A stretch of 8,602 nucleotides of DNA from NCBI GenBank assembly GCA_022564935.1, contig JADFKM010000070.1, forward strand, positions 1-8,602, given 5' to 3'. Each line of letters begins with the position of its first letter. Positions within the stretch are counted from its first letter, which is position 1. This DNA comes from Candidatus Dadabacteria bacterium. Its GTDB lineage: Bacteria > Desulfobacterota_D > UBA1144 > Nemesobacterales > JADFKM01. A program made the position numbers and the translations under genes. Shown here piece after piece: positions 1 through 8,602 of this stretch. The notes under the pieces are model-generated. The model was not told where the DNA came from. It saw only the letters and a program-made list of their open reading frames with translations, and made no database searches.

Positions 1-174
1 GGTCTGTTCAATATCGTGACGGGGATAACCCTTGGGATTCCTATGGCCGTCCAACCCATGAAGGCGATAGCTATAGTGGCGTTTTCATCCACAGCCGTGG
101 GATTTGTCGTAGGGCTTGTGCTCGCCTATCTTCTTCGTCTTGGAACATTTAAAATTGAGAGAGGGAGCGGCTAA
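1..174 (+). CDS. MOT1-family molybdate/sulfate transporter, partial (5' end outside window)
   Basis: The open frame entering the window ends at a TAA at 172-174 and gives 57 residues. It contains FNIVTG, then GIPMAVQPMKAIA, the signature of the first half of MOT1-type (SulP-related) molybdate/sulfate permeases, which are inner-membrane proteins of about 400 residues or more. A hydrophobic helix (AVGFVVGLVLAYLL) and a short basic tail follow. In the family the QPMKA motif lies in the first repeat, roughly 300 residues before the C-terminus; here the stop comes after about 38 more residues, and the last helix resembles the normal final helix. This suggests an internal deletion or misjoin. The gene lies 44 bp before mobA on the same strand, which fits molybdate uptake. 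Family assignment is fairly sure; integrity is doubtful. Confidence 0.65.
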   Translation, partial: GLFNIVTGITLGIPMAVQPMKAIAIVAFSSTAVGFVVGLVLAYLLRLGTFKIERGSG

Positions 175-218
175 TAGACGTTTAAATAACGGTTTATTCC
201 TCAAAGAGGGGTTTTAAC

Positions 219-818
219 ATGGTTGCCGGGGTGATTCTGGCGGGCGGTGGATCAAAACGGTTCGGCTCCGACAAGAGATATTACAGGCTTAATGGGAAGA
301 CCCTAATTGAGGCGTGCTGCGATAAAATAAACGAGGTGTGCGAAAATAACTACATCGTTGCGGACAAAGATTTTTCAGACCAACGGTCCTATGCCCATGG
401 TTTTACAGTTCTTAGAGACTTGGAGGATGGTAAGGGGCCGCTTATGGGTGTTTATACCGCTCTATCGCATATAGTTGAGGAAGGTTGTCTCGTTATTCCG
501 GTGGATATGCCTGGGCTCAGTGTGTCTTTGCTCAAATACATTAAGTCACAGGCCCCCCTGTTTGATCTTGCAATCCCCTCTGGTGATGAGCTTTTCCCCT
601 TGCCCGGGTACTACTCGAAAGAACTTCTCCCCCTTATAGTGTCTTCTTTTGAAGGCGATGATTTCTCACTCAAGGCTCTCGTAGGGCGGGCTGAGGAGAG
701 CGTGGAATTGAAGGTGCTCAGGATATCATTCGAAAAGATTAAAAAATTCGGCGCTCCGCAGAAGGTTTTGTTCAACATTAACATGGAAAATGATGTCGAA
801 AAATTTCAAGGATCATAG
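219..818 (+). CDS. mobA: Molybdenum cofactor guanylyltransferase (MobA)
   Basis: This 199-residue cytoplasmic enzyme would transfer GMP from GTP to Mo-molybdopterin, giving the bis-MGD form used by DMSO reductase-family enzymes. The N-terminus has the nucleotide-binding signature LAGGGSKRFGSDK (residues 7-19) with the conserved Lys19. Further family marks are LRDLEDGKGPLMGVYTAL (65-82, the GPLxG loop) and a DMPGL metal-binding motif (96-100). Length matches the family. The ATG at 219 follows a purine-rich AAAGAGGGG at 203-211. It sits between the transporter fragment and moaE in a same-strand Moco cluster. The C-terminal half is less conserved, as is usual. A related nucleotidyltransferase such as MocA is less likely because of the context and the GPLMG and DMP motifs. 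Confidence 0.88.
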   Translation: MVAGVILAGGGSKRFGSDKRYYRLNGKTLIEACCDKINEVCENNYIVADKDFSDQRSYAHGFTVLRDLEDGKGPLMGVYTALSHIVEEGCLVIPVDMPGLSVSLLKYIKSQAPLFDLAIPSGDELFPLPGYYSKELLPLIVSSFEGDDFSLKALVGRAEESVELKVLRISFEKIKKFGAPQKVLFNINMENDVEKFQGS

Positions 819-853
819 GGAGAATAATTATAATAAACGTTGGTGGCATAAAG

Positions 854-1300
854 TTGAATATGAGTGAAAACTACCTTACGAAAGAAAAAATTGACGATTT
901 ACAGCCACGAAAATTTATGCGGGTTGATGTCGGTTCCTGCGGTTCAATGTTCGTGTTTAAGGGTATTGTAAGGAGAGACAAAACTGAGAAAGGTTTTGTT
1001 AAAGAAATATTTTATGAAGTATATGAAGAAATGGCTGAGAACGAAATAGGCAAGGTAAAACACGACGCATTGAATAAGTTTAAAGTAGAAGACATATACC
1101 TAAAGCATAGAATCGGGAGAGTAAGAGTAGGAGAAGTGTCACTTCTTGTTGCAATTCTCTCCGCCCACAGAAAGAGTGGAATCGAGGCCATAGACTACAT
1201 CATTGACGAAGTAAAATTTAAAGTTCCGATCTGGAAGAAGGAAATTTTTGAAGACGGCTCCTATCGATGGAGGGAAGACAATGCTCGATATAAGCGATAA
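854..1300 (+). CDS. moaE: Molybdopterin synthase catalytic (large) subunit MoaE
   Basis: MoaE, with the thiocarboxylated small subunit MoaD, inserts the two dithiolene sulfurs into cyclic pyranopterin monophosphate to make molybdopterin. Visible motifs (TTG-start numbering) are GIVRR (37-41), YEVYEEMAE (54-62), HRIGRVRVGEVSLLVAILSA (85-104) followed by HR, and IDEVKFKVPIWKKE (117-130). Lys121 and Lys128 match the two catalytic lysines of the family. The 148-residue length is normal. The start is ambiguous: TTG at 854 has GGTGG 7 bp upstream, while the in-frame ATG at 860 has poorer spacing; only two residues differ. Its 3' end overlaps moaCB by 20 bp, suggesting coupled translation. No moaD is visible in the window, so the partner must be elsewhere. 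Confidence 0.93.
   Translation: MNMSENYLTKEKIDDLQPRKFMRVDVGSCGSMFVFKGIVRRDKTEKGFVKEIFYEVYEEMAENEIGKVKHDALNKFKVEDIYLKHRIGRVRVGEVSLLVAILSAHRKSGIEAIDYIIDEVKFKVPIWKKEIFEDGSYRWREDNARYKR
1269..1274 (+). promoter_or_regulatory. Ribosome binding site fixing the moaCB start
   Basis: GGAGGG lies 6 bp before the ATG at 1281, inside the end of moaE. It favours 1281 over the upstream in-frame TTG at 1248, which would add 11 residues not typical of MoaC; MoaC proteins usually begin close to the MLDIS-type segment found here. Confidence 0.8.
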
Positions 1301-2192
1301 GATAACCACCCTTCGCATAGCAAGGGCCCGTGCCGTTGTGAGGGTATCTGAAGAAACTATACAGAAAATACTAAATTGTGAAGTCCCAAAGGGGGATGTG
1401 ATAAAAATAGCAAAAACTTATGCGATTGTGAGGGCAAAAAAAACTCCCGAGCTTATTCCGTTTTGTCATAACATACCTGTGGAATGGGTGGATTCGGATG
1501 TCAGGATTGAAGGTAGTCGGATCATGATTGAAGTAACTGCCAAAACCACTTATAAGACGGGATGTGAAATGGAGGCACTGACGGGAGCGTGCTGCACGGC
1601 CCTTACGGTGTATGATATGTTAAAGCCGATAGACAAGGATATTGAGATACTCTCGGTTAAACTGGTGGATAAAGAAGGCGGCAAATCTGAGTTCCGAGAA
1701 GAGATCCCTGAAGAGTTCAGGGCAGGAGTTTTGGTCGTTTCCGATTCCGTATTCGCCGGAAAGAAGAAAGACAGCGCAGGACAAAATATTTTGAAAAAAC
1801 TGGAAGAAATCGGTGTTGGGGATACAGAATACAAGATTGTTCCTGATGAGGTAGAACAAATAAGGGAAGAGGTTAGCGGGTGGTGTGATAGAGGGTTTCA
1901 GCTTGTAATTACGACGGGAGACACCGGCCTTTCGCCGAGGGACTCGACGCCGGAGGGCGGTTCGCCCTCTTATTGAAAAGGAGATTCCTGGCATTATGGA
2001 AGCCGCAAGGAGCTACGGGCAGGAGCGAACCCCATACTCCATGCTTTCCAGAGGCATCGCCGGCTTGAGGGGCAAGACGCTTATAATAACTCTTCCGGGC
2101 TCATCGAGGGGGCTAAGGAGTCCATGGACGGGCTTTTCCCCTATGTCCTCCATCTTTTCAAAATGCTCGAAGGCGGAAGGTATAAGGGCTAG
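1281..2192 (+). pseudogene. moaCB: Fused MoaC-MoaB gene, interrupted by two compensating 1-base frameshifts
   Basis: Residues 1-140 are MoaC (cyclic pyranopterin monophosphate synthase), with KKTPELIPFCH (53-63), GCEMEALTG (94-102), YDMLK (111-115) and KEGGKS (131-136); the catalytic His, Glu and Lys positions look intact. From about residue 147 a MoaB/MogA-type domain follows (AGVLVVSDSVFAG, then [15 protein letters not shown]), the domain that adenylylates molybdopterin. Such MoaC/MoaB fusions are known. The frame breaks at GGG 1955-1957 (one G too many) and stops at 1974-1976. The downstream sequence in the +1 frame reads [18 protein letters not shown] through LPGSSRG, and after the G5 run at 2108-2112 (one G too few) the original frame resumes with [20 protein letters not shown] up to TAG 2190-2192. 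Restored length is 303 codons, normal for the fusion. The MoaC part could still be made. Both indels are in G runs, so sequence error is as likely as true decay. Confidence 0.82.
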
Positions 2193-2216
2193 AATCACTG
2201 TGGGGCCGTATTAATA

Positions 2217-3407
2217 ATGATAACCGTTAAGAAGGCTAAAGAGCTGCTCACACGAAACGTCGACATACTTGAGTCCCGCGTTGAAGGTTTAGTTGACGCC
2301 TTGGGCTGCGCTCTTGCCGAGGACGTTTTTTCTCCGGTAGACCTCCCGCCCTTTACCTGCTCTGCCATGGACGGATACGCCGTGCGTTCCTCCGATGTTC
2401 GAAGCACAAAGGGAGCGAAATTGAAAATCAGGGGAGAGATAAGAGCGGGTGATTCTAAGAACATAACTGTGGAGAAAGGCGAGGCCGTAAGGGTGCTTAC
2501 GGGAGCGCCAGTCCCATCGGGGGCCGACTGTGTCGTAATGCAGGAATATACTCAGCTAGAGGACTGTTTTGTTCTCGTAAAAACCGGTGTAGGGAAAGGG
2601 GAGAACATACGGACTAAGGGAGAAGAAATCAGACGGGGGAGAAAGGTTCTAGACGCTGGAACGGTTCTCAATCCCGCCGTAATTGGGTTTCTCTCTATCA
2701 TGGGTTTTGACAAAGTAAGGGCCATAAGAAAACCGTCGGTCAGTGTAATAGTGACGGGGACTGAGATAACGAAGCCCGGAACTGCGCTGAAACCGGGGAA
2801 GGTGTACGATTCCAACTCTTTTTCCCTTTGTTCCGCTTTGAAGGGGATGGGTATTAATAAAATAGCAGTTAAAAGAGTGGGAGATGAGTTTAGTTTGATT
2901 CAAGAGGTTTTCGAGAAAGCGGTTTCCGGATCGGATGTCGTTGTTTTCAGCGGGGGCATTTCGGTGGGTAAATACGATTTTGTGAGAGAGCTTTTTGATA
3001 AAGTGGGAGTAGAAACGGTGTTTTATAAAGTTAAGCAGAAGCCCGGGAAGCCGCTCTATTTCGGAAGATATAAGGGCAAGCCGGTCTTCGGATTACCAGG
3101 CAACCCCGTTTCCTCTCTCGTCTGCTTTTACGAGTATGTTTACCCCGTTGTTCGCAAGATGTTGGGCCTTTATCCGGTGTTTCTGGATGAAAAAACCCTG
3201 ACTTTGGGAAAAGAGGTAACGGATAAAGCCGGAAGGGTCAACTTTTTAAGGGCAAGGGCGTATAGGGACACCGTCATGCCGCTCGTGCCTCAACAGTCCC
3301 ATATGCTTTCGGCGTTTGCCGAGGCGAATTGCTTATTAGTCGTTCCTGAGAACAGGAAATTTTTGAGAAAGGGAGAGAAAGTAAAGGTTCACAACCTACC
3401 CCTGTAA
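2217..3407 (+). CDS. moeA: Molybdopterin molybdenumtransferase (MoeA)
   Basis: MoeA inserts molybdate into adenylylated molybdopterin, releasing Mo-molybdopterin; it acts as a cytoplasmic dimer. The 396-residue protein carries the expected blocks in order: LPPFTCSAMDGYAVRS (43-58), VRVLTGAPVPSGADCVVMQE (91-110), GENIRTKGEEIRRG (128-141), the MPT-binding-domain segment VIVTGTEI (177-184), YDSNS (197-201), SGGISVGKYD (245-254) and FGLPGNPVSS (291-300), then a C-terminal beta domain. Length is typical. The ATG at 2217 follows the moaCB stop by 24 bp and has only a weak upstream purine stretch (GTGGGG, 12 bp away), so translation may depend partly on the upstream gene. Unlike its neighbour moaCB it is uninterrupted. 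It is the last recognisable gene of the Moco cluster. Confidence 0.95.
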   Translation: MITVKKAKELLTRNVDILESRVEGLVDALGCALAEDVFSPVDLPPFTCSAMDGYAVRSSDVRSTKGAKLKIRGEIRAGDSKNITVEKGEAVRVLTGAPVPSGADCVVMQEYTQLEDCFVLVKTGVGKGENIRTKGEEIRRGRKVLDAGTVLNPAVIGFLSIMGFDKVRAIRKPSVSVIVTGTEITKPGTALKPGKVYDSNSFSLCSALKGMGINKIAVKRVGDEFSLIQEVFEKAVSGSDVVVFSGGISVGKYDFVRELFDKVGVETVFYKVKQKPGKPLYFGRYKGKPVFGLPGNPVSSLVCFYEYVYPVVRKMLGLYPVFLDEKTLTLGKEVTDKAGRVNFLRARAYRDTVMPLVPQQSHMLSAFAEANCLLVVPENRKFLRKGEKVKVHNLPL

Positions 3408-3732
3408 TATCGATTAACATATCCGAAACTTGTATATTTGAGTTTCTGCAACCCCGTTTAGTGCGCTCCCCCTAATCGGCTTCCTTTTATTTTTACATTC
3501 ACTCTGACGGCTCTGCGTTCAAATAAATTTGTCGTGAAGCCCCCTCTTGACTTTCCCCCTTTCGAACCCTTAACTGTAATATGTCTGGCTACGGTTCTAC
3601 TCGCTTTTTAACACAAAACAACTCACTTCAACACTTGTCGAAATATAAATCAGATCTCGTAACATACTGTAATATAGGGATTTTACGCTCCTTTACACAT
3701 CGCCACACAATTATTCTCAAATGGGTTGAGTA
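3408..3732. other. A+T-rich intergenic stretch after moeA with no supported gene
   Basis: The stretch separates the Moco operon from the block that starts at the repeat at 3733. Short open frames here lack ribosome binding sites and recognisable sequence. It contains three copies of CTGTAATAT (3402-3410, 3574-3582, 3667-3675), the last two sharing ACTGTAATAT. The stem GAAACT/AGTTTC (3425-3446, 10-base loop) lies 17 bp after the moeA stop but has no T run, so it is at best a weak terminator or RNA-end hairpin. Confidence 0.5.
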
Positions 3733-3859
3733 CCATTCGCAAACGGATGCACGTAGGCCGAAAACAAACGGCAGATGCGGCGGAGAGAGGCAGTTTTAGC
3801 GGCGTTGGGCGCAGTCCTTTATCTGCCAGCGCAAAAGGCTGCCGTCAGCCTCCTCAGCG
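3733..3859. repeat. 127-bp perfect direct repeat, copy 1
   Basis: Identical over its whole length to 8476-8602. It covers the last sense codon and stop of the small membrane-protein gene (3854-3859), its terminator (3833-3851), and about 100 bp of non-coding sequence. Inside are two direct CAAACGG heptamers (in GCAAACGGATGC and ACAAACGGCAGATGC). The left boundary at 3733 is sharp: the two bases before it (TA) differ from those before copy 2 (AC). Confidence 0.95.
3833..3851 (-). terminator. Rho-independent terminator of the small membrane-protein gene
   Basis: On the minus strand the stem AGGCTG/CAGCCT with loop ACGG is followed by a short T run (TTTT including the last stem base), starting 2 bases after the TGA of the gene at 3854-4153. 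Position and orientation fit; the T run is short, so efficiency is uncertain. Confidence 0.65.
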
Positions 3860-4153
3860 CTTCACCGGGCTCTGGAACTCGCCGCCGGCTTCTCCGGCAC
3901 CCTGCTCTTGAGGGGGCTCCTCTGGGGCCCCTTCCGTTTTGGCTTGTGCGGTTTCTTGCGGCGCGGCGGAGCTCTGGAACTCGCTTCCCGTCGTCACCGA
4001 TGCGTCCCCCCCCGGTGGTTGAGCCGAGCCCTCAGCTTGCTCTCCGGGCGAGGCTTCGTTGCCGGCATCGGTGACATTGGTAAGAAAGAGAATCAAGCCG
4101 AACACCACAAGCAGGGCTACGACAATTATTATTATCACCAACTCAGCGCTCAT
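3854..4153 (-). CDS. Small single-pass membrane protein with low-complexity Pro/Glu/Ala/Gln tail
   Basis: I do not recognise this 99-residue protein. Residues 5-25 (LVIIIIVVALLVVFGLILFL) form one uncleaved-type hydrophobic helix, and the rest is a hydrophilic, disordered-looking tail rich in Gly, Pro, Glu, Ala, Gln and Ser, probably exposed on one side of the membrane. The tail carries an internal repeat, GSEFQSS and GGEFQSP, encoded by the same 14-bp DNA word at 3869-3882 and 3971-3984. AGGAGG 7 bp upstream of the ATG at 4153 is a strong ribosome binding site, and a terminator follows the stop, so this is a complete single-gene unit. The high G+C of the tail differs from the flanking intergenic DNA. 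The last codon and stop lie inside the 127-bp repeat, so another copy of the gene may follow beyond the window. Function is unknown. Confidence 0.75.
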   Translation of the reverse strand: MSAELVIIIIVVALLVVFGLILFLTNVTDAGNEASPGEQAEGSAQPPGGDASVTTGSEFQSSAAPQETAQAKTEGAPEEPPQEQGAGEAGGEFQSPVKR

Positions 4154-4329
4154 CTTTTCTCCTCCTGTGGAGTATTAAATAGTGGCAATATGGACGAAAA
4201 ATGGTGTAAGTATATGTAAAGTGCCCATATTTTGCTTTTTAAGGGTTAAATCAACACCGTACTATCCAATACTTACTCCAAAAGTCCTAAAGAGTCAATA
4301 ACATTTTCGCATATTAGGCCAATAAACTT
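4154..4329. other. Non-coding region upstream of the small membrane-protein gene
   Basis: No gene is visible. It must hold the minus-strand promoter of the gene at 3854-4153, but I find no clear -35/-10 pair. A 7-bp inverted repeat (AATATGG 4187-4193, CCATATT 4225-4231) is the only structure noted and may be chance. Confidence 0.4.
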
Positions 4330-4351
4330 GAAAAATCCCCTTATACAGGGG
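4330..4351 (-). terminator. Rho-independent terminator with no annotated gene upstream
   Basis: On the minus strand the stem CCCCT/AGGGG (loop GTATA) is followed by ATTTTT. This is a good terminator shape, but no credible minus-strand protein gene ends here. It either ends a small RNA made from about 4500-4352 or insulates the downstream membrane-protein gene. Confidence 0.7.
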
Positions 4352-4500
4352 TAGAACCGCTAAGGAGCGTGTATTGTGGCTTCGTCGGCTTAGAGTACGG
4401 AGGTATGGATGGGCGCCGTGCTGCTGCCCGCCTTAGCTGCGGGGCTAAGGATTGCCGGGCGAAGAACGGGAGCGTTGCGGAGTTAGGTAGAGGAGGGATT
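4352..4500 (-). ncRNA. Candidate structured small RNA (unassigned family)
   Basis: The segment folds strongly and has no convincing protein gene. Its core is a 12-bp helix: GCCCG 4426-4430 with CGGGC 4456-4460, and CCTTAGC 4431-4437 with GCTAAGG 4444-4450, with a 6-base loop and one 5-base bulge. A possible closing helix pairs AACCGC 4355-4360 with GCGGAGTT 4477-4484 (one bulged A). The minus-strand terminator at 4330-4351 follows at once, which sets the likely strand. A minus-strand promoter could lie near 4515-4550 (TATATT/TATTAT) but no -35 is clear. I could not match it to 6S, SRP, RNase P or tmRNA. The 68-codon Pro/Arg-rich minus frame over it lacks a ribosome binding site. The 5' end is a guess. 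Confidence 0.35.
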
Positions 4501-4528
4501 GACATTAAGACCCTAATGGATAGATAAT
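4499..4528 (+). promoter_or_regulatory. Near-consensus sigma70-type promoter for the 92-aa gene
   Basis: TTGACA (4499-4504) and GATAAT (4523-4528) are separated by 18 bp. The predicted start is near 4535, about 40 bases before the ATG at 4574. It is the best promoter match I see in the window. Confidence 0.7.
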
Positions 4529-4573
4529 ATAAAGCAGTTGTACACATTTACTTAAAGTAAGGGGGAACGAGTA

Positions 4574-4852
4574 ATGTACTGTGATAAATGTGGGAAATCC
4601 GTTTACATGTCGAACAGCGCAAGAACCCTTCAGTACATAGTTGAGTACGGCAGGCTCCCCGAACAGAACGAGTTCACGACCTTTACAAAGAGCGGGGACC
4701 GCCACCTGCTTCCCGTCGATGACTGCCAGGGCTCTCCGTCCAGATACCAGTACCTTGAAGGCATGTCCAGGGACCCGCGAGGAGGCGTCTACAACGATGA
4801 TTTGGAGAGAAAGTACCGCGAGGCCTATAAAATACTTAAAGACCTGACCTGA
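4574..4852 (+). CDS. Small CxxC protein of unknown function (92 aa)
   Basis: The family is not recognised. The N-terminus MYCDKCGK has a CxxC pair (Cys3, Cys6) like half of a zinc ribbon; His44 and Cys51 could complete a metal site, but this is speculation. The middle is polar and the C-terminus (residues about 76-92) looks like an amphipathic helix rich in Lys, Glu and Tyr. There is no signal peptide or membrane helix, so it is probably cytoplasmic. TAAGGGGG at 4558-4565 gives a good ribosome binding site 8 bp before the ATG, and a strong promoter lies upstream, so expression is likely. It is the only well-supported plus-strand gene in the right half of the window and converges on the minus-strand pair ending at 4984. 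Confidence 0.7.
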   Translation: MYCDKCGKSVYMSNSARTLQYIVEYGRLPEQNEFTTFTKSGDRHLLPVDDCQGSPSRYQYLEGMSRDPRGGVYNDDLERKYREAYKILKDLT

Positions 4853-4983
4853 GGCGAAAAACCTGCCCAAAAGAAGCTTTTTATTTCGAGAGAAATGATT
4901 CGGCCGGTAATTGGGCGGGGGCACCCTCTGCGAAGGATACCCCTCACCTCACTGATTTCGACCTTCTATATATCAAAACCGGC
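4853..4983. other. Convergent intergenic region with a stem-loop
   Basis: Between two genes facing each other. Read on the minus strand, GGGGTATCC pairs with GGGTGCCCC (about 4918-4943, loop of 8, two G-U pairs), but no T run follows, so it is not a standard terminator. No clear plus-strand terminator was found for the 92-aa gene. Confidence 0.35.
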
Positions 4984-5181
4984 CTATTCCCAATCCACCG
5001 TATAATCGGCCGCATCCGGCGGCAGGGTCTTGAGCCACTTGGAGCTGTCGTACTGCGACGGCCCGAAGATAATGGCCAGGTTGGCTATTATGATCCCCTG
5101 TACGGGGTTGCCCGTAGCTTTAGCCCTTTTCTCGATCAGGGCATAGATGGGATCCGGTATGTTTAGTGTAATTTCAGCCAT
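4984..5181 (-). CDS. Small ribbon-helix-helix-like protein (65 aa)
   Basis: The N-terminal EITLNIPDPIYALIEKRAKA followed by TGNPVQGIIIANLAIIFG has the pattern of a ribbon-helix-helix DNA-binding fold: a beta strand (ITLNIP), then two helices. The short C-terminal tail (residues 41-65) is acidic and aromatic and is of unknown role. AGGAGGTT at 5191-5198 precedes the ATG at 5181, a strong though slightly distant site. It lies 44 bp downstream of the nitroreductase gene on the same strand with no terminator between, so the two are probably co-transcribed, and it might regulate that operon. An antitoxin is another possibility, but no toxin-like gene is adjacent. The fold is inferred from pattern only. 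Confidence 0.7.
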   Translation of the reverse strand: MAEITLNIPDPIYALIEKRAKATGNPVQGIIIANLAIIFGPSQYDSSKWLKTLPPDAADYTVDWE

Positions 5182-5225
5182 ATTTTACAGAACCTCCTGT
5201 GCTTATTTAAACGAAATGCCAAAGA

Positions 5226-6248
5226 TCAGTCCGCCTCGCCTATACCCTTTTCTTTCCTGTACTGATCCAGCACTTCCCTCTTGACCGTAGGTACCAGCTT
5301 GTAGGTCTCTTCTGCTCCGGAAGCAACGGTGCCCTTCACATCACCCTCGGAAAGCTTCTCCAGCCTGGGGTCGCCCATCTTGTCTCCAACCGTCGAGGGC
5401 GCAAGCTTCCAGTCCGTGAGCCATTCGTCTCCCAGACCCATCTTCTTTGTAAGGGTGTTGATCTCCTCGAGCCTTCCGGGAAGGGGCCCGGGCGCCTGAA
5501 TTAGGCTTAGCTCTTCGAGGAGCTTAACCGTAGCTTCGTCCCTTTGGAACGGGTTCCCGACCTTTCTCTCGAAGAACATCTTCTCGAACGGGGGCCTCGA
5601 GCGCGTGCCTCCGCCGTCCATTTTTTCCGCCGGATATCCGACGGTCATCAGCCAGCAGAAAACGTAGGTGTCGGGAAGATTGAGGTACTTCTTGGTGTTC
5701 CTCCTGGCTCCGCCGCTGGCGCCGTTGAGACAGCTGCCCAACCCAAGCGAAGTTGCGGCGATTATTGCGTTCTGAATGGCGTTTCCAAGATCGATAGCGG
5801 CCAGCCGGTGCATAATAGCATCCGGCAGGATCGCGGGCAGTGGGAACATCCTCCCAACCCTGTCGTACTCCCATCCGTGGGCCTTGTCGAGCGCCCCAGT
5901 TCTCAGGAGGTCGTGAATAGACTGACCCTGGTAGTCGTATCCGGCCAGGTCGTAGCACCAGAAAATCAGTATCGGGGCCATCTGAGTCGTTATCTGACTC
6001 CAGTCTGAGATGAACTCCCAAATATCAGGGTCCTCCTCCCTGTAGCAAACTATAGCTCTCTGACCGTTGAAATTGCCCGCGGAAGGGGAAATCCTGGCGG
6101 CCTCCAGCATCGTCTGCACTTTCCATTTCTCGACGGGCTTGTTCGGCTCGTACCATCTTAAAGACCTTCTCGTGCCGATAGCGTCCAGCGCGCTCAACTG
6201 GCTTACCTCGCTGGCAGCGGGCACTCCTTCTGTTAACAGTCTGCTCAT
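5226..6248 (-). CDS. Nitroreductase-family flavoprotein with C-terminal extension (340 aa)
   Basis: Residues about 20-225 match the FMN-dependent nitroreductase fold: RRSLRWYEPNKPVEKWKVQ (27-45, FMN phosphate contact region), MLEAARISPSAGNFNGQRAI (47-66), and near the end SLGLGSCLNGAS (167-178) and LMTVGYPAEK (200-209). Family members usually run about 170-220 residues and use NAD(P)H to reduce nitro compounds, quinones or flavins; some have other roles such as dehalogenation or dehydrogenation. Here about 110 extra residues follow, hydrophilic and rich in Lys, Glu and Gly, with no motif I recognise, so the substrate cannot be guessed. There is no signal peptide; it is probably cytoplasmic. 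AGGAGG (6258-6263) lies 9 bp before the ATG at 6248. A promoter flanked by palindromes lies upstream, and the 65-aa ribbon-helix-helix-like gene follows. Confidence 0.85.
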   Translation of the reverse strand: MSRLLTEGVPAASEVSQLSALDAIGTRRSLRWYEPNKPVEKWKVQTMLEAARISPSAGNFNGQRAIVCYREEDPDIWEFISDWSQITTQMAPILIFWCYDLAGYDYQGQSIHDLLRTGALDKAHGWEYDRVGRMFPLPAILPDAIMHRLAAIDLGNAIQNAIIAATSLGLGSCLNGASGGARRNTKKYLNLPDTYVFCWLMTVGYPAEKMDGGGTRSRPPFEKMFFERKVGNPFQRDEATVKLLEELSLIQAPGPLPGRLEEINTLTKKMGLGDEWLTDWKLAPSTVGDKMGDPRLEKLSEGDVKGTVASGAEETYKLVPTVKREVLDQYRKEKGIGEAD

Positions 6249-6285
6249 AACGGCATACCTCCTAGGCTCTTATTTGTGATGTTTG

Positions 6286-6297
6286 GCTTATATAAGC
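6286..6297. promoter_or_regulatory. 12-bp palindrome at the nitroreductase transcription start (putative operator)
   Basis: GCTTATATAAGC is a perfect palindrome just downstream of the predicted -10 box (6300-6305) of the minus-strand promoter, where a bound repressor would block transcription. Inferred from position and symmetry. Confidence 0.4.
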
Positions 6298-6299
6298 AC

Positions 6300-6326
6300 G
6301 TTATATTAATCTAAATTTTATGTCAA
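6300..6326 (-). promoter_or_regulatory. Putative promoter of the nitroreductase operon
   Basis: On the minus strand TTGACA (6321-6326) and TATAAC (6300-6305) are 15 bp apart, shorter than the ideal 17. The ATG is about 52 bp downstream of the -10. A second palindrome, ATCTGCAGAT (6332-6341), lies 5 bp upstream of the -35 box. Confidence 0.5.
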
Positions 6327-6581
6327 GTAATATCTGCAGATTGACCGCCTTTATAGAATACCGCAGCGCTGGGTACAGGTGCAGCTCAATATCTCACTAA
6401 GACACAAAAGTCTTTGCGCCTCTCTCTGCAAATTTTTATTCCACAACGAAGGCCCGATGCGACCCCGTTTTGCATCCTGTTTGTATTTTTTAATGTTAAT
6501 TTTACAAAAAAATACATGACTCTACTACGGCTGGACAGCTACTTCTTTTTTGCTCCGCTTAAGCTTACACCCCAGTCCTTG
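6327..6581. other. Intergenic region between recombinase and nitroreductase genes
   Basis: No gene is seen. It holds the ATCTGCAGAT palindrome (6332-6341), and a 10-bp perfect A+T-rich inverted repeat TGTATTTTTT (6482-6491) / AAAAAATACA (6507-6516) with a 15-base loop. The latter lies about 65 bp after the recombinase stop and could form an RNA hairpin in either direction. It is not a standard G+C-rich terminator. Confidence 0.45.
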
Positions 6582-7550
6582 TCAATAGTTGGCAAAAAAC
6601 GAAGCGGAGCGCTCCGGGTCGAACCTTCGCTTATCGTAAAGCTTCGTTGTAGAGGGGTAAGCGTGCCCCACGGCCTGCTGCACGTCCTCGAGGCTGGCTC
6701 CGTTCTCAAGGGCCCGCGTTACAAATGTTGCTCTCATTGAATGGGCGGAAAAACCACGCACTAGACCAACCATGGCAGCGTATTTTTTTAGTATGCGGTC
6801 TATCGTGTCTGGATGGAGGAACCTTCGCATCTCGGTGTTCTTCCAACTCCTCCCGCATGGACGAAAAAGCGCCCCGTCCAGATCCTCTCCATGCCCCGAT
6901 GCCGCGAGGTAATCGTCGATACGGCGTGCGGTCTGTGGGTGTACCGACACGGACAGCTCACGGCCTCCCTTGCGCATAAAGCGCAGGGACCAATACCCCC
7001 GGTTCCTGTGAAAGTCCCGAACGGCAAGAGACGCTATCTCGGAGCGCCTCGCACCAACCTGAAAACCAACCGATAATACAGCACGGTCTCTAAGTCCCTT
7101 AACCGTATCCAAAGGAGGAGCGTCCAGAATGCTTCGCGCCTCCTCGGTAGAAAAACACGCCGTCATTCCCTCTCTCGAGCTGTCCGGAGGCCTCTCTACC
7201 TCGCGAACCGGGTTGTCTTTTATGAGTCCGTATTTAACAAGGTGGGAAAATAGGCTTGAGAGCGCCGAGAGCTTCCTTCTAACGGTGCTTGACTTAAGCC
7301 TTTGCTCCTCCATGTATCGTTTCCACATAACCACGGCCCTGTGATCCACCTTTTTAAAGTCTTTCCCCGAGCGCACACCGAATAAATCCATAAAACCCAT
7401 CACGTCGCTCCTGTAGGCCCTCCTGGTCTGTCTGCTATGCCTTCCGGCGAGCCACACGTCCTCCTCCGGTACGACCGCCAGCAGGTCGAGGAGTTGTATT
7501 TCCTGTCCGTCATATTCTTCTTTTGACAGAAATTTCTTCTTTGGTTTCAA
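6582..7550 (-). CDS. Tyrosine site-specific recombinase/integrase (322 aa)
   Basis: The protein has the two-domain layout of phage-integrase/Xer-type tyrosine recombinases: an N-terminal core-binding SAM-like domain (about 25-120, SRQTRRAYRSDVMGFMDLFG and VRRKLSALSSLFSHL) and a C-terminal catalytic domain. All expected catalytic residues are visible: Arg168 (GARRSEI), Lys194 (MRKGG), His270 and Arg273 (HSMR), His296 (VGHA) and the nucleophile Tyr305 (TKLYDKR). The length is typical. The end, RRFDPERSASFFANY, resembles stand-alone integrases of mobile elements rather than XerC/XerD. The start is TTG at 7550, with AGGGGGAG just upstream; the next in-frame Met is residue 51, too late. It appears functional and would cut and rejoin DNA at specific sites. 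It lies beside a ParA remnant and inside a unit bounded by direct repeats, which fits an integrative element, though its sites are not proven. Confidence 0.92.
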   Translation of the reverse strand: MKPKKKFLSKEEYDGQEIQLLDLLAVVPEEDVWLAGRHSRQTRRAYRSDVMGFMDLFGVRSGKDFKKVDHRAVVMWKRYMEEQRLKSSTVRRKLSALSSLFSHLVKYGLIKDNPVREVERPPDSSREGMTACFSTEEARSILDAPPLDTVKGLRDRAVLSVGFQVGARRSEIASLAVRDFHRNRGYWSLRFMRKGGRELSVSVHPQTARRIDDYLAASGHGEDLDGALFRPCGRSWKNTEMRRFLHPDTIDRILKKYAAMVGLVRGFSAHSMRATFVTRALENGASLEDVQQAVGHAYPSTTKLYDKRRFDPERSASFFANY

Positions 7551-7775
7551 CCCTCTCCCCCTAAATATCCGTTAAAACATCTTCGACAGAAGAAGGACCG
7601 CGATTCCCAGATCGTAAAAATCGCTTTTGCGCAGTGTGCCAAACCACACGTGATAATACACCTTAAATATTACATGGTATGAGAATCAGTGGTAAAGTCA
7701 ATATGTGTTTAAGGGGTAAGCGCTTTTACCGTGTCTGGTTTTTAATACGGTTGATGTATCATTTTCTGCAACAGC
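7551..7775. other. Leader and promoter region of the recombinase gene
   Basis: Between the ParA remnant and the recombinase, both on the minus strand. It contains several small hairpins: GTGTG/CACAC (7634-7649), GCGATT/AATCGC in the leader, and CTGCAA/TTGCAG (7766-7786) overlapping the end of the ParA remnant. No gene is seen. Confidence 0.4.
7674..7701 (-). promoter_or_regulatory. Putative promoter of the recombinase gene
   Basis: On the minus strand TTGACT (7696-7701) and TACCAT (7674-7679) have a 16-bp spacer. This implies a leader of roughly 115 bases before the TTG start, with room for the hairpin at 7634-7649. The -10 matches consensus at 4 of 6 bases only. Confidence 0.35.
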
Positions 7776-8416
7776 TTAGGTTGCAGTGCTTGATGTGCTT
7801 GGTGCCGCACCTACGGTTATACCCTCTGATGCAGTTCCCGATTTACTTTTTATACCTTTTGTTGTGCTGTCAATATCTATCCCTTCCTCTTTCCTTCTGT
7901 GTGTTATCTCTTTAGGTTGATAAATTATGTACAGAGCGCCGGAAGGGTTGTTATTTGCGAGTTTTAAAACTTCGTATATGTCGTCGGATGCCATGAGGCC
8001 GACAACGGGGGAGAGTGTTGATGAAGGCGTAGTCATGGCTTGTTTTGAGGCATTCCGTTTGTGCTGAAGCCTGCGGTGGCGGTTGAGCGCAGAGTCTAGC
8101 TGCAGCTAGACGTTTGCTGCGGATATGTCGGACGGTATGAGGTCTATGCCCCGATATGTAGAAATGATGTAGTCGTTTGTGTTGGATTTTTTGCTTTTTA
8201 GACAGGTGGTCGAAAGTTTTTTCTCGGGCCGAATCTACAAGGCAGGTGGTGGCGTTTGCCAGCGTGTCGCAGTCTATGAGGAGCATCTCTTTTTTGTGCC
8301 GCTGAGCCGGAAGAACGGGCGATTAACTGCAAGGGATAGGTCGGAAAGCTTGGGGTACTCTCAGCCGAGCCTTTTAGAGTCATTAAAAGCCTTTCATCTA
8401 TATCACCGCCTCTCAT
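7776..8416 (-). pseudogene. Decayed ParA/Soj-type partition ATPase
   Basis: No single frame is long, but ParA landmarks occur in order across three minus-strand frames. From ATG 8416, LLMTLKGSAEST (about 8354-8389) is a degenerate Walker A P-loop (KGGVGKST in the family). DLSLAVN (8322-8342) fits the following helix. PAQRHKKEMLLIDCDTLAN then ATTCLVDSAREKTFDHL (8203-8310) matches the segment LLIDxDPQANATT. NTNDYIISTYRGIDLIPSDI then SAANV (8109-8183) matches the ParA YENLDLIPS region. HDYAFINTLP (8008-8037) matches the Walker B-like YDYVxIDTPP. LMASDDIYEVLKLANNN and onward (from 7997) matches the VAADEVIIPV strand. At least five frame changes and one in-frame TAG (8106-8108) interrupt it. The last frame runs on into a Ser/Thr/Gly-rich tail to 7776. 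ParA proteins position plasmids or chromosomes; next to a tyrosine recombinase this suggests a decayed plasmid or integrative element. No parB is seen. Confidence 0.7.
8094..8111. repeat. 18-bp perfect palindrome
   Basis: GTCTAGCTGCAGCTAGAC reads identically on both strands with no loop. It lies inside the ParA remnant and includes its in-frame TAG. Reading that codon as GAG (Glu) would fit the expected protein and break the symmetry, so a point mutation may have completed the palindrome. Confidence 0.8.
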
Positions 8417-8475
8417 GTAGGTTCTTTGGGGGTACAGGACAGCGAGTGAAGTAGCTGGGACATAGCCCCATAAAC

Positions 8476-8602
8476 CCATTCGCAAACGGATGCACGTAGG
8501 CCGAAAACAAACGGCAGATGCGGCGGAGAGAGGCAGTTTTAGCGGCGTTGGGCGCAGTCCTTTATCTGCCAGCGCAAAAGGCTGCCGTCAGCCTCCTCAG
8601 CG
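8476..8602. repeat. 127-bp perfect direct repeat, copy 2 (runs to the window end)
   Basis: Identical to 3733-3859, offset 4,743 bp, with no mismatch up to the last base. It includes a second copy of the minus-strand terminator (8576-8594) and the stop and last codon of the small membrane protein (8597-8602). The real repeat may be longer than the window shows. Confidence 0.95.

Follow-up and report, generated by a model that had tools for sequence, protein, structure and literature searches.

Background

The closest described counterparts of the structure reported here are the k-mer overlaps at the ends of contigs from de Bruijn assemblies, and the extrachromosomal circular elements identified in metagenome assembly graphs by DomCycle (PMC9104695). 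The contig analysed here resembles the former in that an overlap of one exact length is common to unrelated contig ends and no longer repeats were found; it differs from the usual k-mer end overlap in that its end overlaps the interior of its own contig, which gives a lasso, not a closed ring. With the latter it shares its size, as the 4.7-kb cycle lies near the 4.8-kb median reported for the DomCycle elements (PMC9104695); in contrast to the DomCycle cycles, the loop is entered from outside by the tail and cannot be called dominant. The authors of DomCycle also reported that repeats often produce spurious (phantom) cycles in metagenome assembly graphs (PMC9104695).

The recombinase gene in the loop has a counterpart on a 28.8-kb plasmid of Lichenicola cladoniae (NZ_CP053715); none of the annotated neighbours of the recombinase gene on that plasmid resembles the other genes found here.

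Assembly data and sequence comparison

The window (8,602 nucleotides) is an entire contig, C7, of a draft genome of 1,993,734 bases in 104 contigs with a completeness of 88.6%. Stretches from all 104 contigs were compared, in total approximately 1.78 of 1.99 Mb or about 89% of the bin, with both ends of every contig except C102 and C104, of which only the near end was included; the other 213 kb or so consists of interior parts of the longest contigs together with the last 11 kb of these two. Contig ends were compared with all sequence read, and the total of 208 ends counts the two far ends as well, for which a match was precluded. Exact repeats of at least 60 bases were searched all-against-all in the same 1.78 Mb. 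For the graph structure, a toy de Bruijn graph (k = 127) built from random sequence was examined for the existence of an 8,602-base lasso walk under each candidate arrangement.

The terminal repeat

The last 127 bases of the contig (8476-8602, plus strand) are 100% identical to positions 3733-3859 (plus strand), as a direct pair with a spacing of 4743. The left edge of the repeat is sharp and maximal, and its right edge is the contig end. Since the direct repeats that rank next within the window are 28 nt long with 71-79% identity, a chance origin of the 127-base repeat is excluded. No third copy was found elsewhere in the window's own genome. The two ends of the contig do not match each other, as those of a circular contig would; the counterpart of the right end starts at position 3733 instead of position 1.

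Exactly 127 bases are shared at five of the 208 contig ends, namely the end of C7, both ends of C97, and the ends of C29 and C34; in all, nine ends share at least 25 bases with some other place, and the remaining 199 are without partner (1.78 Mb compared; far ends of C102 and C104 absent). Every 127-base exact repeat in the compared sequence touches a contig end, the next length observed is 95, and no exact repeat longer than 127 bases was found in the all-against-all search (at least 60 bases; 1.78 of 1.99 Mb). Because several unrelated ends carry exactly 127 bases and nothing longer was found, 127 is taken as the k of the assembler, and the terminal repeat is interpreted as a k-mer overlap left by a de Bruijn assembler, with a probability of about 95%; this interpretation is nearly as firm when combined with leaving the nature of the loop undecided. 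The repeat is an ordinary assembly signature. The initial annotation of this DNA had described an exact, sharply starting match of the last 127 bases to 3733-3859 and had read its length as k = 127; the repeat pair bears out the former, and the counts at the contig ends and the lengths of the exact repeats support the latter.

Other origins of the repeat were considered and rejected. Against the terminus of a linear phage or of a transposon stand the length of the repeat, which is exactly k, and the window itself, in which neither a transposase gene nor any gene for a phage structural protein is present; for a dispersed repeat of the insertion-sequence type, no further copy of the 127 bases occurs in the bin. 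No tRNA gene or other RNA gene that could serve as an attachment site was found; the right boundary of the unit lies outside the contig. A strong DNA hairpin in the repeat was also rejected (fold z-score -1.0). The motif GTTGGGC in the repeat recalls integron attC sites, as a lead only; the recombinase encoded in the loop scores far under the cut-off for integron integrases.

Two of the other overlaps merit description. Contig C97 (32,888 bases) is a circular contig of 32,761 bp, the ends of which match each other over 127 bases, as expected of a true circle; it carries genes for terminase, portal, major head, tail and endolysin proteins together with ParA, ParB and an O-like replication-initiation protein, and probably represents a phage-plasmid of this uncultivated lineage, as judged from its gene content. 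The ends of C29 and C34 enter one common vertex; their last 127 bases are shared, and the sequence before it is related but diverged, which suggests a two-copy region.

Topology of the contig

As assembled, the contig contains both the join of 3732 to 3733 and the join of 8475 to 3733, and therefore has the form of a lasso, in which a tail of 3,732 bp enters a loop of 4,743 bp (3733-8475). The assembler would have entered the vertex at 3733-3859, the first copy of the overlap, from the tail, circled the 4,743 bp once, re-met the same vertex, and halted, leaving the second copy (8476-8602) at the contig end.

In the toy graph, a tandem copy, an integrated plus an excised element, and a circle attached to the tail each gave the lasso walk, as did direct repeats of 127, 300 and 1500 bp. 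The walk was absent for a single integrated copy with a 30-bp att, and only this arrangement, one integrated copy bounded by short att sites, is thereby ruled out. The two graph links proposed in the initial annotation (3732 to 3733 and 8475 to 3733) are both found in the contig, and each of its options for the 4,743-bp unit, i.e. circle, tandem or longer shared repeat, yields the lasso at k = 127.

Gene content of the tail and the loop

The tail (1-3732, plus strand) contains genes for molybdenum cofactor synthesis, as identified by Pfam and NCBIfam matches: a mobA-like gene (219-818), moaE (854-1300), a frameshift-broken moaC-mog (1248-1976), and moeA (2217-3407), followed by an intergenic stretch (3408-3732). 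A colinear moeA/moaC-mog/mobA cluster is present in one relative (G001). The mog part of the moaC-mog fusion (1248-2214) appears to be broken by frameshifts near 1957 and 2105, which may represent a pseudogene or a sequence error. Tetranucleotide usage and G+C content of the loop are inside the range of the host genome, and the tail is likewise host-like.

The first ORF in the loop has 99 amino acids (3854-4153, minus strand) and an N-terminal hydrophobic segment, for which no convincing family match was found; its last codons lie inside the overlap. A 92-amino-acid ORF with a CxxC motif near its start (4574-4852, plus strand) could not be assigned to a family; it has a paralogue with 48% identity in the same genome (C15:157-429) and no counterpart among 41 relatives. 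The next two genes, a 65-amino-acid gene (4984-5181, minus strand; 41-67% to relatives by tblastx and blastp) and a nitroreductase-family gene (5226-6248, minus strand; Pfam PF00881), the protein of which is approximately 71-74% identical to those of genes of the same order, form a pair that is conserved in the order. In several relatives from several families of the order, this pair is located beside or near a large gene, the counterpart of which in this genome (C43:10616-13228) has other neighbours, with the pair being elsewhere (4984-6248); therefore, either the pair has moved or the lineage has lost the old order.

At higher coordinates than the pair, an intact tyrosine recombinase is encoded (6582-7550, minus strand; Pfam PF00589). 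Over residues 40-312 it aligns to a chain of solved structure, and the conserved motifs R, HxxR, GH and Y coincide in this alignment. It is closest to plasmid-borne recombinases: it is 56% identical, over near full length, to the L. cladoniae plasmid protein, about 40% identical to other plasmid recombinases, about 30% to the Xer-like proteins found in its order, and about 28% to phage integrases. The neighbourhoods of four plasmid recombinases show no common arrangement, and one has a ParA gene nearby. In the loop, the recombinase gene is accompanied by a decayed, frameshift-broken gene for a ParA-like partition ATPase (7779-8348, minus strand), which matches Pfam AAA_31 (E 8.6e-7) only when read through across frames that were chosen after the resemblance had been seen, which helps the score; its matches to plasmid ParA proteins are weak. 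A perfect 18-bp palindrome, GTCTAGCTGCAGCTAGAC, was read by eye at 8094-8111 within this decayed region.

Interpretation of the loop

The join of 8475 to 3733 would most likely reflect head-to-tail copies of the unit, either in tandem or as a recombinase-excised circle beside an integrated copy, at about an even chance as judged from the sequence. Counted for it are the intact plasmid-type recombinase, the ParA remnant, and the position of the nitroreductase pair, which is displaced relative to the relatives. Head-to-tail copies are preferred only slightly over a phantom cycle, in which a direct repeat, 127 bp or longer and possibly of several hundred, follows both 3732 and 8475, and the second copy leads elsewhere, so that neither a circle nor a tandem exists. 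Such a phantom cycle has a substantial probability, short of an even chance: the simulated walk was identical for repeats of 127, 300 and 1500 bp, and spurious cycles caused by repeats are reported to riddle assembly graphs (PMC9104695). Two points speak against a phantom cycle: the bin contains no further copy of the repeat, which includes neither a transposase gene nor an RNA gene, and read pairs that spanned the vertex on its first passage would be expected to have spanned it on the second as well, had it led elsewhere. Counted against head-to-tail copies are the lack of a replication gene among the ORFs of the unit, the failure to find the same junction in a related genome, and the lack of an exit contig after the loop in the bin, which says little, because 199 of the 208 contig ends have no partner at all. 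Searches of viral and genome collections with the repeat or the recombinase gave no match.

Among the forms that head-to-tail copies might take, an integrated element accompanied by a circle that its recombinase (6582-7550) had excised can be proposed tentatively, since it gives the same lasso walk in the toy graph and an intact recombinase of the plasmid-borne kind, as expected of an integrative element, is encoded in the unit; however, neither an att core nor a tRNA target nor an empty site was identified, and only the left boundary lies within the contig. A 4,743-bp tandem duplication in the chromosome would give the same walk and agrees with the host-like composition of the unit, but is the less likely of the two, and no exit contig for it is seen in the bin. 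The simplest graph, with one branch vertex and no need for an exit, would result from a small free circle that chimeric reads falsely linked to the tail; this is improbable, as both the composition and the nitroreductase pair are of a chromosomal type and family searches detected no replication-initiation gene, a mark of plasmids, among the ORFs of the unit. Returning to head-to-tail copies, their most far-reaching version is quite doubtful. In it, the unit would be a mobile element that is still active, has taken up a native nitroreductase gene pair and no longer has its partition gene, and it would be present both integrated in the chromosome and as a circle of 4.7 kb cut out by its plasmid-type recombinase.

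Implications

Where the length of an exact repeat at a contig end equals k, the repeat stems from the assembler and, as a caution, is not to be taken as a biological terminal repeat. The lasso also flags a site at which a small, recombinase-bearing element may excise in an uncultivated bacterium.
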